Below, piece by piece: positions 41,133 through 47,891 of a stretch of 64,000 nt of DNA. Every line of letters begins with the position of its first letter. Position 1 is the first letter of the stretch. Under the pieces are notes generated by a model. The model had not been told where the DNA came from and made no database searches. It saw only the letters and a program-made list of their open reading frames with translations. The DNA comes from Opitutus sp. GAS368 (GTDB taxonomy: Bacteria; Verrucomicrobiota; Verrucomicrobiia; Opitutales; Opitutaceae), in assembly GCA_945906965.1 (NCBI GenBank), contig CAMDRP010000005.1:1-64000 (forward strand). Reading direction: 5' to 3'. The translations under genes and the position numbers were made by a program.

Positions 41133-41247
41133 ACCAAAATGAGAGATTAAGAAGATGGGCTTTGTCCACGGAAATTTTACTTGTATCTGGGGTGTGCATA
41201 ATTTGTTCGGCTTGCAGCTAGCGGATTCGTTCATATCCTCCGGACTA

Positions 41248-42159
41248 ATGCCTATGGTCGATTGCGCCGCTCAACGTAGTCGCTCAGTTGTGGAGCAACT
41301 CCGGCGCTCTGACATTTTCAGAGATTATCAGCAGGCCTTTCGGGAGACCACGGGTTTGCCGATTAATCTACGTCCAATCGAGGCATTTGACCTGCCTCAT
41401 CATAAGGATCCGAAGCAGGCGCCGTTTTGCGCGTTGCTAGCTCAGAGCAACAAATCCTGTGCGGCCTGTCTGCAGTTGCAAAAAAGAGTAGAAGAAGAGG
41501 CGAAGCTGGAGCCAAAAACACTCAAGTGCTTTGCGGGCCTGTGTGATTCATCGGTACCGGTGCGCGTGGGCGAAAATCTCGTGGCATTTTTGCAAACTGG
41601 GCAGGTCTTGTTGCATCAGCCCTCGAAGATCGAATTCGCCAAGACGACGCGGCAACTCGTCCAATGGGGATCCGAAGTGGACCTTAAAAAATTAGAAGAG
41701 GCGTATTTTCAGACGCGCGTCGTCTCGAGAAAACAATACGAATCTATCCTGCGGTTGCTCACGATTTTCGCGCAACATCTAGCAACGGTGAGCAATCAAC
41801 TCAGCGTGCGGCAAAGCACGAGCGAGGCTCCCGCCGTGACGCGGGCCCGGATTTATATCGCCGAGCATCAAACGGAAGAAATCGCCCTAAAGGACGTAGC
41901 CGGGGCGGTGAATATGAGTGCATTTTATTTCTGCAAAACCTTCAAAAAGGCCACGGGTATGACGTTCACTGATTATCTAGCCCGGGTCCGGGTGGAGAAA
42001 GTGAAGAACCTGCTGCTGAATCCGCACAAGCGCGTGAGCGAGGCCGCTTATGAAGCAGGATTTCAATCCTTGTCGCAGTTCAACCGAGTTTTCCTGCGGA
42101 TAGCGGGACAATCACCCTCGGTTTACCGCGATCACGTGCATAACACTTCGAGGTCCTAA
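41248..42159 (+). CDS. AraC-family regulator with N-terminal PocR-like ligand-binding domain
   Basis: PFCALLAQSNKSCAACLQLQ...KCFAGLCDSSVPVRVGENLVAFLQTGQV (PocR-like Cys pattern) plus C-terminal AraC HTH (DVAGAVNMSAFYFCKTFKKATGMTFTDYLARVRVEKVKNLL...VSEAAYEAGFQSLSQFNRVF). Confidence 0.92.
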   Translation: MPMVDCAAQRSRSVVEQLRRSDIFRDYQQAFRETTGLPINLRPIEAFDLPHHKDPKQAPFCALLAQSNKSCAACLQLQKRVEEEAKLEPKTLKCFAGLCDSSVPVRVGENLVAFLQTGQVLLHQPSKIEFAKTTRQLVQWGSEVDLKKLEEAYFQTRVVSRKQYESILRLLTIFAQHLATVSNQLSVRQSTSEAPAVTRARIYIAEHQTEEIALKDVAGAVNMSAFYFCKTFKKATGMTFTDYLARVRVEKVKNLLLNPHKRVSEAAYEAGFQSLSQFNRVFLRIAGQSPSVYRDHVHNTSRS

Positions 42160-42165
42160 TGGGCC

Positions 42166-42633
42166 TTAAGTGAGCGCTGCGGCCTTCGCGGTGCTCAGGG
42201 CTGCGTCCCGATATTGGCAGATCGAGCAAAGGGCCTCGACCTCAGTCCGCGCTACGGTGCGGATGACGATTAGTAATTCAGCCACCGCTTGATCACGCAC
42301 CACGGCCTCAAGTTTGGGCATAGCGACTTGGGTAAACACCAGCGCTTCGAGCCAGGCTTGCTCGCCGGCGATAAAAAAATAGAGGTAGGGATTGCGACCG
42401 CAGGGACAATCCGGACGTGTGTCGCTGGCCCGCAACACTGCGGGGGTCTTGCGTTTTGCGGTTAGTTCCAGAGCTCGGATGATCGAGTCAACGGTCCAAT
42501 CCAGTAAGTGAATCAACGTGTCGGGATGGGCCAGAGCGGTATTCGCCCGCTCAATATTGAGGAGTGCGGTCCATCGAGCGCAGATTTGCGACCGTCGACT
42601 AAGCAGTGCTTGCACCAATTCTCTCTGCATCAC
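42166..42633 (-). CDS. Uncharacterised Cys-containing mostly helical protein
   Basis: 155 aa, divergent from the cbb3-side genes; PDCPCGRNPYLYFFIAGEQAWLEAL and ALCSICQYRD; no family recognised. Confidence 0.7.
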   Translation of the reverse strand: MMQRELVQALLSRRSQICARWTALLNIERANTALAHPDTLIHLLDWTVDSIIRALELTAKRKTPAVLRASDTRPDCPCGRNPYLYFFIAGEQAWLEALVFTQVAMPKLEAVVRDQAVAELLIVIRTVARTEVEALCSICQYRDAALSTAKAAALT

Positions 42634-42685
42634 GAGAGACTACCAATTCGGTCTAATGCTTACTCCGCGCGCGTTGCCAAAAATT

Positions 42686-42700
42686 AGGCATTCTTTGCCT
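42686..42700. repeat. 15-bp inverted repeat AGGCA-TTCTT-TGCCT
   Basis: Perfect 5-5-5 inverted repeat in the divergent intergenic region upstream of the cbb3 cluster. Confidence 0.45.
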
Positions 42701-42726
42701 CGGTAAAATCATCCCTGGACAAAAAA

Positions 42727-42757
42727 TGCACAGTCTCAGGCAAGGCCTGCACAGACT
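42727..42757. promoter_or_regulatory. Candidate AraC-type operator: direct repeats 21 bp apart
   Basis: TGCACAGTCT (42727-42736) and TGCACAGACT (42748-42757), with CAGGC-AAG-GCCTG between them; AraC gene adjacent. Confidence 0.5.
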
Positions 42758-42807
42758 GATCGCGTAAAGTCGTTTAGATTTAAGGCCACGCACCAACCCA
42801 TCCCCCT

Positions 42808-43014
42808 ATGAAAATCAACGCCTCTCACGCCCTCGCCTCACCCGAACCGACCGAAGCCCAAATTCAACATCAGGCTTATCTGCTTTGGCAGGCTGCCGGA
42901 TGCCAAGAGGGCCGAGAGCTCGAAGACTGGCTTCATGCGCGAGAACTGCTGCGCCATCATCAGGGGTACCCCAACCAGAAGCCGCGGGCTCGAGCGCCGA
43001 AGCGTGCGGCCTAA
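42808..43014 (+). CDS. DUF2934 domain-containing small protein
   Basis: EAQIQHQAYLLWQAAGCQEGRELEDWLHARELL resembles the DUF2934 core. Confidence 0.75.
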   Translation: MKINASHALASPEPTEAQIQHQAYLLWQAAGCQEGRELEDWLHARELLRHHQGYPNQKPRARAPKRAA

Positions 43015-43044: not shown

Positions 43045-43332
43045 ATGTCTGTTGTGCCGCTTACGCTTACGATCAGTCTCTGTTTGGTTTTCACCTTCAT
43101 CGTTTTTTTTCTACGGGAACATGCCCGCAGCGGTATCAGTAGTGCCGAGCGCGATTCGTTGCTACCCTTGGCGGAAGAGACTCCGCACCTGACTGAGCCG
43201 AAGCATTTAAAGTCCGAGTCAGACCACGACCATGCTGCTGCGTTAGCGGCCGACGGCGCCGAATGCGGTTGTCGTAGTGGTCGTCATGACGCGTGTGCGG
43301 GGTGTCTCAAGCGTCCGGCTGTTCACAGCTGA
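43045..43332 (+). CDS. Small single-TM protein with Cys/His-rich tail, CcoS-like N-terminus, cbb3-associated
   Basis: MSVVPLTLTISLCLVFTFIVFFLREHARSGISSAERDSLLPLAEE...SDHDHAAALAADGAECGCRSGRHDACAGC; directly upstream of ccoNO. Confidence 0.65.
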   Translation: MSVVPLTLTISLCLVFTFIVFFLREHARSGISSAERDSLLPLAEETPHLTEPKHLKSESDHDHAAALAADGAECGCRSGRHDACAGCLKRPAVHS

Positions 43333-43361: not shown

Positions 43362-45677
43362 ATGTCCGACCAAAAAATAACCATCGAATTCAACGACAAG
43401 GTCGTCCGTCAATTTCTGCTCGCCTCTGTGATTTGGGGCGCCGTGGGCATGGTGGTCGGCACGCTCGTTGCCGCGCAGCTCAATTACTGGCAGGTAAATT
43501 TCAATCTGCCTTGGCTCACGTTTGGGCGGCTGCGTCCGCTGCACACCAATGCCGTGATTTTTGCGTTTGTGGGCAACATGATGTTTGCCGGCATCTATTA
43601 TTCGACCCAGCGCCTCGTGAAGGCTCGTTTGGCGAGTGATTTTCTCTCTCAGCTGCATTTCTGGGGTTGGCAGCTCATCATCGTGGCGGCTGCGATCACG
43701 CTCCCGTTGGGGTTTTCACGCGGCAAGGAGTACGCGGAGCTCATTTGGCCGATCAATATCGCCGTCACACTGATCTGGGTGGTATTTGCTGTTAACTTTT
43801 TTTGGACGTTAGCGAAACGTCGTGAGCCGAGCCTCTACGTGGCGATCTGGTTTTACATCGCGACGATCATCACGGTGGCGATGCTCTACATCGTTAATCA
43901 CCTCTCCATTCCGACGAACTGGCTGCACAGTTATCCGGTCTTCGGTGGCGTGCAGGATGCGCTCGTGCAATGGTGGTACGGACACAACGCCGTCGCGTTT
44001 TTCCTTACCACGCCTATCCTCGGGGTGATGTATTATTTTCTGCCGAAAGCGGCAGAGCGTCCGGTCTATTCGTATCGATTGTCGGTCATTCATTTTTGGT
44101 CGCTCGTCTTTGTTTATATTTGGGCTGGTCCGCATCATCTGTTGAACAGCGCTTTGCCCGGCTGGCTGCAGAACCTCGGCATGACTTTTTCGTTGATGCT
44201 CTGGGCCCCATCATGGGGCGGCATGCTCAACGGTCTGCTCACGCTACGCGGCGCCTGGGACAAACTGCGGACTGATCCCGTGCTCAAGTTTTTCGCCGCA
44301 GCTGTCACGTTTTACGGCATGTGTACCTTTGAAGGGCCGTTGCTTTCCATCAAATCGGTCAACGCGCTCGGCCATTACACGGATTGGATCATCGGCCATG
44401 TTCACGGCGGCACCCTCGGCTGGAATGGTTTCATGGCTGCTGGCATGATTTATTGGTTACTCCCGCGGTTATGGAGCCGGCCGTTGCACTCGGTTTCCCT
44501 CGCCAATCTTCATTTTTGGCTCGGGATGGTTGGTATTCTCCTCTACGTCGGCGCGATGTGGACGAGCGGGATCACCCAAGGCGTCATGCTCAACGCCACG
44601 ACCGAGGGTGGCACGCTCTTGGCCTATCCAAATTTTATCGATACGCTCAATACGATCCGACCGATGATGTTGATGCGCGTGATCGGTGGTTCGCTGTATC
44701 TGGTCGGTTGGTTTCTGCTCATGTATAATCTGTGGAAAACCATCGCCACGGCGCGGCCCGTCAATGGCACCATCGAAGTCTTTGCCGACGAAGGTGCTAT
44801 CGTCCACGAAGATAAAATCACACTGGTCGGTACGTTTCTTAATCCCCCAGTAGCCTTCTCGATTTTTGGCGTGGGCTTCTCCTGCGCGTGGATGTTTGGC
44901 GGCGACTTTTTGAGTATCGCTGGAATGTTCGGCTTATTGCTCTGCGTGGTGTTGGCCTACGCGCACTTCGAGTCGCGTGGTAAAAGATGGGCCACGTGGT
45001 ATGATCGCCTGCTGGTTAACTCAGCGCCGTTTACGATTCTCGTCATCATCGCCGTCGCGGTCGGCGGACTGGTTCAAATTATTCCAACGGTGCTGGTGAA
45101 TCGCGCGGCCAACGTCGAAGACCGCCGCCAGCTGCCTTACACGCCACTCGAACTGGCCGGGCGCGATATTTTTGTGAGCGAGGGCTGTTACAACTGCCAT
45201 TCGCAGATGATCCGTACGCTTGTGCCTGATGTACTCCGCTATGGTGATTACTCGCGCCTTGGTGAATCCATCTACGACCATCCGTTTCAATGGGGCTCCA
45301 AACGCACCGGTCCGGATCTGGCCCGCGTCGGTACGAAATATCCCAACATCTGGCACCTGCGCCACATGGAAGACCCGCGCGCCATTTCCGTCGGATCCAA
45401 TATGCCCAACTATCCTTGGTTGTTCACCACCGCCACGGATGCCGCGGCGCTCCCCGCAAAAATCGCCGCGCAACGCCAGCTTGGCGTGCCTTATCCCGCA
45501 TGGACCGATGCGCAGATCACCGCCGACTTTGACCGCCAAGCTAAAGCTCTCGCCGAAGATCTACAAACGGCCGGCGGGGTGATCGCGCCCGACAAACAGA
45601 TCGTCGCTCTGATCGCCTACCTTCAGAAGCTCGGAAAATACGAGACCGTGGCCCCGCAATCCAGTGCTACCCGTTAA
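43362..45677 (+). CDS. ccoNO: cbb3-type cytochrome c oxidase fused subunit I+II (CcoN-CcoO)
   Basis: CcoN TM region with HWWYGHNAVAFFLTTP-like and GHVHGGTLGWNGFMAAGMIYWLLPRLW motifs, then a CcoO-like region with EGCYNCHSQMIRTLVPDVLRYGDYSR heme c site; one continuous ORF. Confidence 0.96.
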   Translation: MSDQKITIEFNDKVVRQFLLASVIWGAVGMVVGTLVAAQLNYWQVNFNLPWLTFGRLRPLHTNAVIFAFVGNMMFAGIYYSTQRLVKARLASDFLSQLHFWGWQLIIVAAAITLPLGFSRGKEYAELIWPINIAVTLIWVVFAVNFFWTLAKRREPSLYVAIWFYIATIITVAMLYIVNHLSIPTNWLHSYPVFGGVQDALVQWWYGHNAVAFFLTTPILGVMYYFLPKAAERPVYSYRLSVIHFWSLVFVYIWAGPHHLLNSALPGWLQNLGMTFSLMLWAPSWGGMLNGLLTLRGAWDKLRTDPVLKFFAAAVTFYGMCTFEGPLLSIKSVNALGHYTDWIIGHVHGGTLGWNGFMAAGMIYWLLPRLWSRPLHSVSLANLHFWLGMVGILLYVGAMWTSGITQGVMLNATTEGGTLLAYPNFIDTLNTIRPMMLMRVIGGSLYLVGWFLLMYNLWKTIATARPVNGTIEVFADEGAIVHEDKITLVGTFLNPPVAFSIFGVGFSCAWMFGGDFLSIAGMFGLLLCVVLAYAHFESRGKRWATWYDRLLVNSAPFTILVIIAVAVGGLVQIIPTVLVNRAANVEDRRQLPYTPLELAGRDIFVSEGCYNCHSQMIRTLVPDVLRYGDYSRLGESIYDHPFQWGSKRTGPDLARVGTKYPNIWHLRHMEDPRAISVGSNMPNYPWLFTTATDAAALPAKIAAQRQLGVPYPAWTDAQITADFDRQAKALAEDLQTAGGVIAPDKQIVALIAYLQKLGKYETVAPQSSATR

Positions 45678-45718: not shown

Positions 45719-45913
45719 ATGTTCCGCCGCCTCATTTTTGCCGACTCCGCTACTCTGTTCACCCTCGTGGCGTTCATCACCGCTGTCTCCATTTTCGCCT
45801 CCATCAGTTGGCGTGCCTTACGTATGAAACGCGCCCAACTCGCCCAGTTCGAAAATCTGCCCTTCACCACGCCCACTCCTTCTGCTCGCCATGACACCGA
45901 TCCCACCGCCTGA
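45719..45913 (+). CDS. ccoQ: CcoQ-like small cbb3 subunit
   Basis: 64-aa single-TM protein between ccoNO and ccoP. Confidence 0.7.
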   Translation: MFRRLIFADSATLFTLVAFITAVSIFASISWRALRMKRAQLAQFENLPFTTPTPSARHDTDPTA

Positions 45914-46463
45914 AGACGAGACTCTCCGTCACCATTCCTTCGACGGCATCCAAGAATTCGACAAACGCCTACCCAACTGGTGGCTATTGACGCTCTACGG
46001 CGCGATCATCTTCTGGGTCGGATATTGGGCCTATTATCAATGGTTTCACGTCGGTCTAGACGGCCCCCAGGAAGTAACGCGCGAGATGATCAAAATCGAG
46101 GCCGCGCGGCTAGTTGCTGCGCCAACCGCCGACAACGCCAGTCTCTGGAAAATGAGTCGCAACCCCGTTTTCGTTGAAGCTGGTCGCACTACGTTCAACA
46201 CGCTGTGCGCGAGCTGCCACACCGAGAAAATGACCGGAGCGATCGGCCCCAATCTTGTGGACCAACTCTGGATTCACGGTGGTACGCCCACGGAAATTTA
46301 CGCGACCTTGGAGAAAGGGGTGCTCGCCAAAGGCATGCCCGCGTGGGTGCCCGTGATCGGCGCCAAGAAATCCGCGGAGGCGGTCGCCTACATGCTCAGT
46401 TTTCACAAAGAAGGTGAGCCCATTGAGGTGCAGGTCGCCTGGATTCCCCAAGCACCCAAATAA
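45891..46463 (+). CDS. ccoP: cbb3-type cytochrome c oxidase subunit III (CcoP), single heme motif
   Basis: HHSFDGIQEFDKRLPNWWLLTLYGAIIFWVGYWAYYQWFH CcoP N-terminus; only one CXXCH (CASCH). Confidence 0.92.
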   Translation: MTPIPPPEDETLRHHSFDGIQEFDKRLPNWWLLTLYGAIIFWVGYWAYYQWFHVGLDGPQEVTREMIKIEAARLVAAPTADNASLWKMSRNPVFVEAGRTTFNTLCASCHTEKMTGAIGPNLVDQLWIHGGTPTEIYATLEKGVLAKGMPAWVPVIGAKKSAEAVAYMLSFHKEGEPIEVQVAWIPQAPK

Positions 46464-46466
46464 TTA

Positions 46467-47891
46467 ATGCCCCTGCCTCCGCTGCAACCTAACCGGGATT
46501 CGGTCACCACCATCCGCGATGATGGGTCACGTGCTTTTTTGTATCCGGCCGATACGCACGGACGATTTGGTCAGGCGCGGCGCTGGTCGGCCGCGTTTCT
46601 GATCGTTTTTTATCTCTCGCTGCCGTGGATTAAAATCAACGGCTACCCGGCGGTTTTTCTCGATCTCAAAGAGCGTCATTTTCATCTCTTTGGTCTCACC
46701 TTTGCCGCACAAGATTTGTGGCTAATCTTTTTCCTGATTACGGGCCTTGGTTTCTCGCTGTTTTTTATCACGGCGCTGCTCGGGCGCATCTGGTGTGGTT
46801 GGGCCTGTCCGCACACTGTTTTTCTGGATCACGTTTATCGCCGGATTGAGCGCTGGATTGATGGCGACGCGGTACAACGTCGCGCCTTAACTGAAGCGCC
46901 GCTGAATGGCGCTAAATTTTTAAAGCGGCTCCTGAAACATACGCTCTACGTGCTGGTTTCGGCGGTGATCACTCACTTGTTTTTTGCTTATTTTGTGTCG
47001 TTGCCCGCGGTCTGGGCGATGATGAAGGAAGCTCCGGCAGAGCACTGGGCGGCGTTTGGATTTATGGGGGTTTACACCGCCGGGCTCTATTTTAACTTTG
47101 CGTGGTTCCGCGAGCAGCTCTGCATCGTTATTTGCCCCTACGGGCGCATGCAATCGGCGTTGATCGACAGTCATTCGCTGGTGGTCGGCTACGATGCGCA
47201 ACGCGGCGAGCCGCGGGGTAAGCTGGGTATCTCAGGCGTGGGTGATTGTATTTCATGTAGCCGCTGCGTCCACGTTTGCCCCACGGGCATCGATATCCGG
47301 CAGGGGCTCCAGATGGAGTGCATCGGTTGCACCGCGTGTATTGATGCGTGCGATGCGGTTATGACCAAACTCAAACGCCCTGCCGGTCTGATTCGCTACG
47401 ATTCTCAGGCTGCGTTTGCCGGCAAAACCACGCGTTGGTTACGCCCGCGTACATTTCTTTATGGTGCGCTCCTCGCGGCGGGTGTGAGCGTCGCACTTTG
47501 GGCCATTTCCACGATTCGGCCGGCCAATCTCGGCATCACGCGCATGACGGGTGCGCCCTACATTATGAGTGAGGATTTTGTGCGTAATCAGTTTCTCGTG
47601 CGCGTCGTTAACAAACGGAACCAAGCGGTGCGCTATGTCTTGCATTTAAATCGAGCTCCGGTCGGTCTGCAGCAGACGGGGCTCACGACGATCTTTGCGG
47701 TTCCTGCGCTGTCGGAAACGGTGCAACCGTTGGTGCTGCAGTTGCCAAAAAAAAATTACCACGGCCCGTTTATTTTTGAAGTATGGGTCGAAGATGAAGC
47801 CGCGCGCTTTCACCTCGAGCGCAATGTAGAATTTCTTGGCCCCGACTCGAACCGGTCTTTTGAGGAAAAAAAAGGTAAACGTGAGCACTAA
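46467..47891 (+). CDS. ccoG: Cytochrome c oxidase accessory protein CcoG (FixG/RdxA)
   Basis: GRIWCGWACPHTVFLDHVYRRIERWIDGD; CISCSRCVHVCPTGIDIRQGLQMECIGCTACIDACDAVM. Confidence 0.96.
   Translation: MPLPPLQPNRDSVTTIRDDGSRAFLYPADTHGRFGQARRWSAAFLIVFYLSLPWIKINGYPAVFLDLKERHFHLFGLTFAAQDLWLIFFLITGLGFSLFFITALLGRIWCGWACPHTVFLDHVYRRIERWIDGDAVQRRALTEAPLNGAKFLKRLLKHTLYVLVSAVITHLFFAYFVSLPAVWAMMKEAPAEHWAAFGFMGVYTAGLYFNFAWFREQLCIVICPYGRMQSALIDSHSLVVGYDAQRGEPRGKLGISGVGDCISCSRCVHVCPTGIDIRQGLQMECIGCTACIDACDAVMTKLKRPAGLIRYDSQAAFAGKTTRWLRPRTFLYGALLAAGVSVALWAISTIRPANLGITRMTGAPYIMSEDFVRNQFLVRVVNKRNQAVRYVLHLNRAPVGLQQTGLTTIFAVPALSETVQPLVLQLPKKNYHGPFIFEVWVEDEAARFHLERNVEFLGPDSNRSFEEKKGKREH

Follow-up and report, generated by a model that had tools for sequence, protein, structure and literature searches.

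Analysis of a 64,000-nucleotide stretch of the Opitutus sp. GAS368 genome (hereafter the window) points to a PocR-AraC regulator that probably serves the Opitutaceae as a global activator of low-oxygen or redox-responsive genes. The regulator would act through a tandem site of 21-bp period and thereby stand in functionally for FNR. An earlier note on this DNA had drawn attention to two short repeats in front of a cbb3 oxidase cluster. The observation holds up, although its interpretation was too narrow: the note missed the CAA part of the half-sites, a divergent site facing the gene of a 155-aa protein, and a genome-wide predicted regulon. No published description of this PocR-AraC/tandem-site system was found in a literature search that covered few subscription papers.

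The regulator gene (positions 41248..42159, plus strand) encodes a 303-aa protein with a PocR domain (Pfam PocR, 5.5e-26, aa 22-180) followed by an AraC-type double helix-turn-helix (HTH) domain (HTH_18, 3.1e-23, aa 204-295). Convergent with it, and divergent from the cbb3 cluster, lies the 155-aa protein gene (42166..42633, minus strand; probable start ATG 42630). The cluster itself runs on the plus strand and comprises a DUF2934 small protein gene (42808..43014; Pfam DUF2934, 2.1e-10), which is the first downstream gene in this genus; an open reading frame (ORF) for a CcoS-like small membrane protein (43045..43332); a fused ccoNO gene for oxidase subunits I and II (43365..45677; COX1 4.7e-111, FixO 7.4e-81, NF011053 1204 bits); ccoP (45891..46463; FixP_N 3e-14, Cytochrome_CBB3 4.5e-12); and a gene for a ccoG-like Fe-S protein (46467..47891; Fer4_18 6.7e-37, FixG_C 3.4e-12). 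The CcoS-like ORF had no Pfam match and is assigned by position and N-terminal sequence only; a homologous ORF sits between the site and ccoNO in relatives. Its cysteine- and histidine-rich C-terminal tail varies between species. DUF2934 heads the operon in this genus; several other genera have the ccoS-like gene immediately after the site. The 155-aa protein had no Pfam or NCBIfam match, and its all-helical model had no PDB fold match. It carries a near-invariant CxCGxNP...CxxC signature, with four near-invariant cysteines among 41 homologues, and is possibly a metal-binding or oxidase-maturation factor. Its gene accompanies cbb3 across Opitutaceae as a co-target of the same predicted site.

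The two decamers noticed earlier, TGCACAGTCT (42727-42736) and TGCACAGACT (42748-42757), start 21 bp apart and are the sole exact matches within the 64 kb; 50 bp separate the end of the second (42757) from the first downstream ORF (DUF2934, ATG 42808), as the earlier note had stated. Alignment of ten same-genus loci revealed that conservation reaches to the left of each TGCACAG, with variable letters that differ between species. Each TGCACAG forms the right-hand portion of a 14-bp half-site with the consensus CAA-N4-YGC-NN-AG. The predicted tandem operator of the cbb3 cluster thus spans 42720..42754 on the plus strand (half-sites 42720-42733 and 42741-42754, period 21, no mismatches). Read from the sequence, a -10 box, TAGATT (42775..42780, plus strand), starts 20 bp after it; the earlier placement of this box, with the proximal repeat over the -35 position, was verified, and TANNNT recurs at the same offset family-wide. 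A second predicted operator, the mirror image of the first, faces the 155-aa gene (42663..42697, minus strand; half-sites 42684-42697 and 42663-42676; one mismatch). It has its own -10 box, TAGTCT (42637..42642, minus strand), located 20 bp beyond the site, with ATG 42630 following 6 nt later. Consistent with what had been reported for this gap, no FNR-like TTGAT-N4-ATCAA with two or fewer mismatches was found within 42634-42807. Less fortunate was the proposal of a further site near the regulator's own start. The TGCACA there on the minus strand (41193-41198) stands alone, without a second copy in tandem; close relatives do not conserve it, and matrix scores were negative. No promoter-type score exceeded -1.6 in the 330 bp upstream of 12 orthologues, leaving an own-promoter site unsupported.

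In favor of mere chance, a window of this size should contain about three copies of the bare TGCACAGWCT core when one mismatch is allowed. Because a first promoter matrix had been trained partly on cbb3 and 155-aa loci, training was repeated on 75 sites outside both groups to give a held-out matrix. With this matrix the two sites of the window ranked 1 (35.1) and 2 (23.4) of about 128,000 positions, followed by a third-best score of 9.2 (window mean -50, sd 12.6). The full 35-bp pattern and its -10 box are, moreover, conserved across the family. Conservation refutes functionless chance repeats, the probability of which we regard as negligible. Another alternative is that the repeats act as RNA, folding into a hairpin or terminator-like element (CAGTCT...AGACTG), and not as a protein site; by inspection, CAGTCTCAGGC-AAG-GCCTGCACAGACTG can pair in the window. 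However, relatives such as G007 and G010 retain the direct-repeat positions and lose the pairing, and the pattern with its fixed -10 recurs before unrelated genes. With pairing not preserved in relatives, the hairpin was rejected as extremely improbable.

The motif search across relatives that the earlier note had proposed recovered the exact tandem pattern in 160 of 252 Opitutaceae genomes, versus about 5 matches for a reversed control. Only 35 bp was searched for, yet among 124 distinct sites position +22 was A in 102 and position +26 was T in 98. A complete TANNNT at exactly offset 20 followed 64 of the 124, although it was not part of the search pattern, and 31 of the 75 sites outside cbb3 and 155-aa loci. 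These promoters combine tandem direct half-sites, a 21-bp period and a proximal half-site at -35, the arrangement of class II AraC-type promoters. A -10 at offset 20 places the proximal half-site over -35, as in class II AraC activators, and this geometry makes it much more likely that the regulator acts here as an activator than as a repressor. In several 155-aa genes the ATG follows the -10 by 5-7 nt, and their transcripts are therefore probably leaderless. The start codon of the window's 155-aa gene lies 6 nt past its -10 (42628-42642), and similarly close spacing occurs at several other targets in relatives, which again suggests leaderless mRNAs.

Conservation at the cbb3 loci themselves is extensive. 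The 35-bp pattern was present in all same-genus cbb3 loci examined. Of the 21 genomes with a cbb3 locus, 14 have the exact site ahead of the oxidase genes and one more, G021, has it with a single mismatch. An equivalent of the second, 155-aa-facing site occurs at nearly every cbb3 locus that has retained a closely related PocR orthologue, and both sites recur across genera; where both sites occur, the promoter matrix scores 23 to 54 for the plus site and 25 to 48 for the minus site. Absence of the repeats from relatives keeping both loci had been named in the earlier note as evidence that would overturn its reading. Among 80 named GTDB loci, PocR and cco occurred together in 56; the site was present in 56/56 and the divergent pair in 42, compared with no match in 319 kb of shuffled sequence.

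Regulator and motif are also associated across genomes. At a threshold of E<=1e-50, PocR orthologues were found in 199 of the 252 genomes: 145 had both regulator and motif, 38 neither, 54 PocR only and 15 the motif only (Fisher p 5e-9, in a test that ignores phylogeny). The PocR-only class arises partly because the exact pattern is strict. No site was found at the cbb3 loci of three genomes without a PocR orthologue (G020, G024, G027). A natural control for the link is provided by G019, where a PocR protein lies beside cbb3 but is only 45% identical, has lost C99 and carries a changed recognition helix in its first HTH (MSAFYFCKTFKK to VSSIQLRKVFKS); despite this adjacent, diverged regulator, no site was found at its cbb3 locus. 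Conversely, G017 retains the cbb3 site though the regulator gene is about 2.2 Mb away. Gene order varies, from a regulator separated from cbb3 (G017, L040) to one divergent beside it (G026, L048). In G014 (L348) the regulator is present with C99 changed to Tyr, and no cbb3 match was found in the genome.

The site could belong to a PocR paralogue or to a different AraC protein, with the adjacent PocR-AraC gene a mere neighbor. The 15 motif-only genomes, some of them nearly complete (e.g., G057), fit such a scenario, as do the roughly 10 AraC-domain proteins per genome and the 2-3 PocR-AraC paralogues of some relatives, which might share the site. Against it, the window's genome encodes a single PocR-domain protein, PocR-cbb3 linkage is retained across genera, the recognition-helix residues vary little or not at all among orthologues, and the sites disappear in genomes that lack the orthologue or carry one with an altered first HTH. 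We judge control by another regulator quite improbable. Strong support for an AraC-type tandem activator site tied to the adjacent PocR-AraC gene, as originally suspected, comes from conservation, from the constant distance to the -10 box, from the joint occurrence of regulator and motif, and from the disappearance of the site when the regulator is absent or has a diverged first HTH. Direct control of both divergent promoters by the PocR-AraC protein or a close paralogue is very likely. Farther out in the order, several genomes of other families retain the gene with its five cysteines, and site-like sequences there are only degenerate.

The following mechanism can be envisaged. Two AraC-domain copies would bind the direct repeat of CAA-N4-YGC-NN-AG with its 21-bp period. 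Because the promoter-proximal half-site overlaps the -35 position, RNA polymerase would be recruited to the TANNNT 20 bp downstream by class II activation. Of the back-to-back promoters at the locus, one would drive the DUF2934-ccoS-ccoNO-ccoP cluster and the other the 155-aa CxCG protein. OmpW and UspA genes are predicted targets elsewhere in the same genome. In relatives, targets would include hemN, 2-oxoacid:ferredoxin oxidoreductases, PEP carboxykinase, multihaem cytochromes and cytochrome c biogenesis genes.

Of the 124 sites, about 36 precede cbb3 (a hemN site, L109, left out) and at least 8 precede the 155-aa gene. Other first genes scanned (n=59) included hemN (6), decahaem cytochromes (6), the 2-oxoacid:acceptor oxidoreductase alpha subunit (5), PckG (4), TonB (3), pyruvate:ferredoxin oxidoreductase (2), OmpW (2) and ResB (2). 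The Opitutus sp. GAS368 genome has further good sites in front of an OmpW gene (score 28.7) and a UspA-like gene (score 26.7). Some predicted targets are not obviously anaerobic, such as PckG, EF-G2, RecQ and adenylate kinase, and the sites before PdxH (G009) and in G023 (score 5.6) may be chance matches. Nonetheless, cbb3, hemN, 2-oxoacid:ferredoxin oxidoreductases, multihaem cytochromes, OmpW and UspA together make up a predicted FNR/Anr-like regulon, and a low-oxygen or redox role for it is well supported by this target content. OprG is itself an OmpW-family protein. Both hemN and oprG belong to the Anr core regulon of Pseudomonas, and boxes at ccoN are present in most species (PMC6588701); ompW is activated by E. 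coli FNR (PMC3688515).

Searching the window's genome with the HTH_Crp_2 profile yielded nothing above cut-off and one sub-cut-off HTH match; Crp/Fnr proteins above cut-off were likewise absent from the closest relatives (G002, G003, G006, G009, G010, G012). Crp-like proteins do occur in several other Opitutaceae; the ones inspected have no FNR-type N-terminal cysteines. Together with the FNR-like target list, this agrees with the earlier suggestion that PocR-AraC control is an alternative to FNR. By its domains, PocR plus AraC HTH, the regulator is not a member of the Crp/Fnr family. It scores as a PocR-domain AraC regulator (PF10114 91.7 bits, cut-off 23.9; HTH_18 82.3 bits) and falls short of the TransRegPocR equivalog (NF047788, 103.6 bits versus a 500-bit cut-off). 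It is best read as a PocR-AraC protein outside the PocR equivalog that would work like FNR without belonging to its family.

The several cysteines remarked upon in the earlier note form an array in the PocR domain, C-X9-C-X2-C-X19-C-X4-C. Four of the five, C61, C71, C74 and C94, do not vary among 33 orthologues down to 45% identity, and C99 is nearly as constant. We hypothesize that these cysteines are the sensor. The regulator model has a mean pLDDT of 76.6, with values below 50 around residues 88-99, and the geometry of any cofactor is unreadable because the cysteine region is of such low confidence. A sequence search found no solved structure of a PocR domain, and a fold search with the model matched essentially AraC DNA-binding domains. 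PocR domains are known small-molecule sensors: Salmonella PocR responds to 1,2-propanediol, and an R51A substitution abolishes the response (PMC11264322). By analogy, the PocR-AraC protein might control these promoters while sensing a metabolite (a short-chain diol, fermentation product or hydrocarbon) and not oxygen or redox. This we consider unlikely, as the targets are respiratory and anaerobic and do not make up one catabolic pathway, and four cysteines are invariant. On the preferred reading, what the PocR domain detects is probably oxygen or redox state, by means of a thiol, metal or Fe-S site, and not a hydrocarbon. More tentatively, and with slightly less than even confidence, we suggest that throughout the Opitutaceae, and perhaps in further families of the same order, the five-cysteine PocR with an Fe-S cluster or thiol switch is a global oxygen sensor that replaces FNR.

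Control of low-oxygen respiration is poorly known in bacteria without FNR, above all in the Verrucomicrobiota, a phylum abundant in soils, lakes and guts. A defined site and predicted regulon across about 160 genomes provide a testable system, with targets, including the 155-aa CxCG protein, that can be read straight from sequence. The PocR domain would gain a role beyond diol and hydrocarbon sensing. If our interpretation is true, the five-cysteine PocR would be a new molecular kind of oxygen/redox sensor governing high-affinity respiration.

XylS, AraC and other class II activators employ tandem half-sites with a 21-bp period, the proximal one over -35. The Opitutaceae promoters share this geometry with XylS/AraC and differ in half-site sequence, sensory domain and regulon. 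Salmonella PocR, the pdu/cob regulator, has the same order of PocR then AraC HTH, and the NF047788 match is nearly full length (103.6 bits). Unlike in Salmonella, however, the protein scores far below the 500-bit equivalog cut-off, its predicted targets are respiratory and not diol and B12 genes, and its signal is likely different. FNR/Anr of Proteobacteria resembles the system described here in its cbb3 oxidase, hemN and OmpW/OprG targets (PMC6588701, PMC3688515), in a cysteine-rich sensor and in an activator site next to -35; here, such targets are accompanied by PFOR-type enzymes and multihaem cytochromes. In contrast to FNR/Anr, the regulator belongs to the unrelated PocR-AraC family and has another cysteine pattern, and its predicted site is a direct repeat of 21-bp period where that of FNR/Anr is the palindrome TTGAT-N4-ATCAA.
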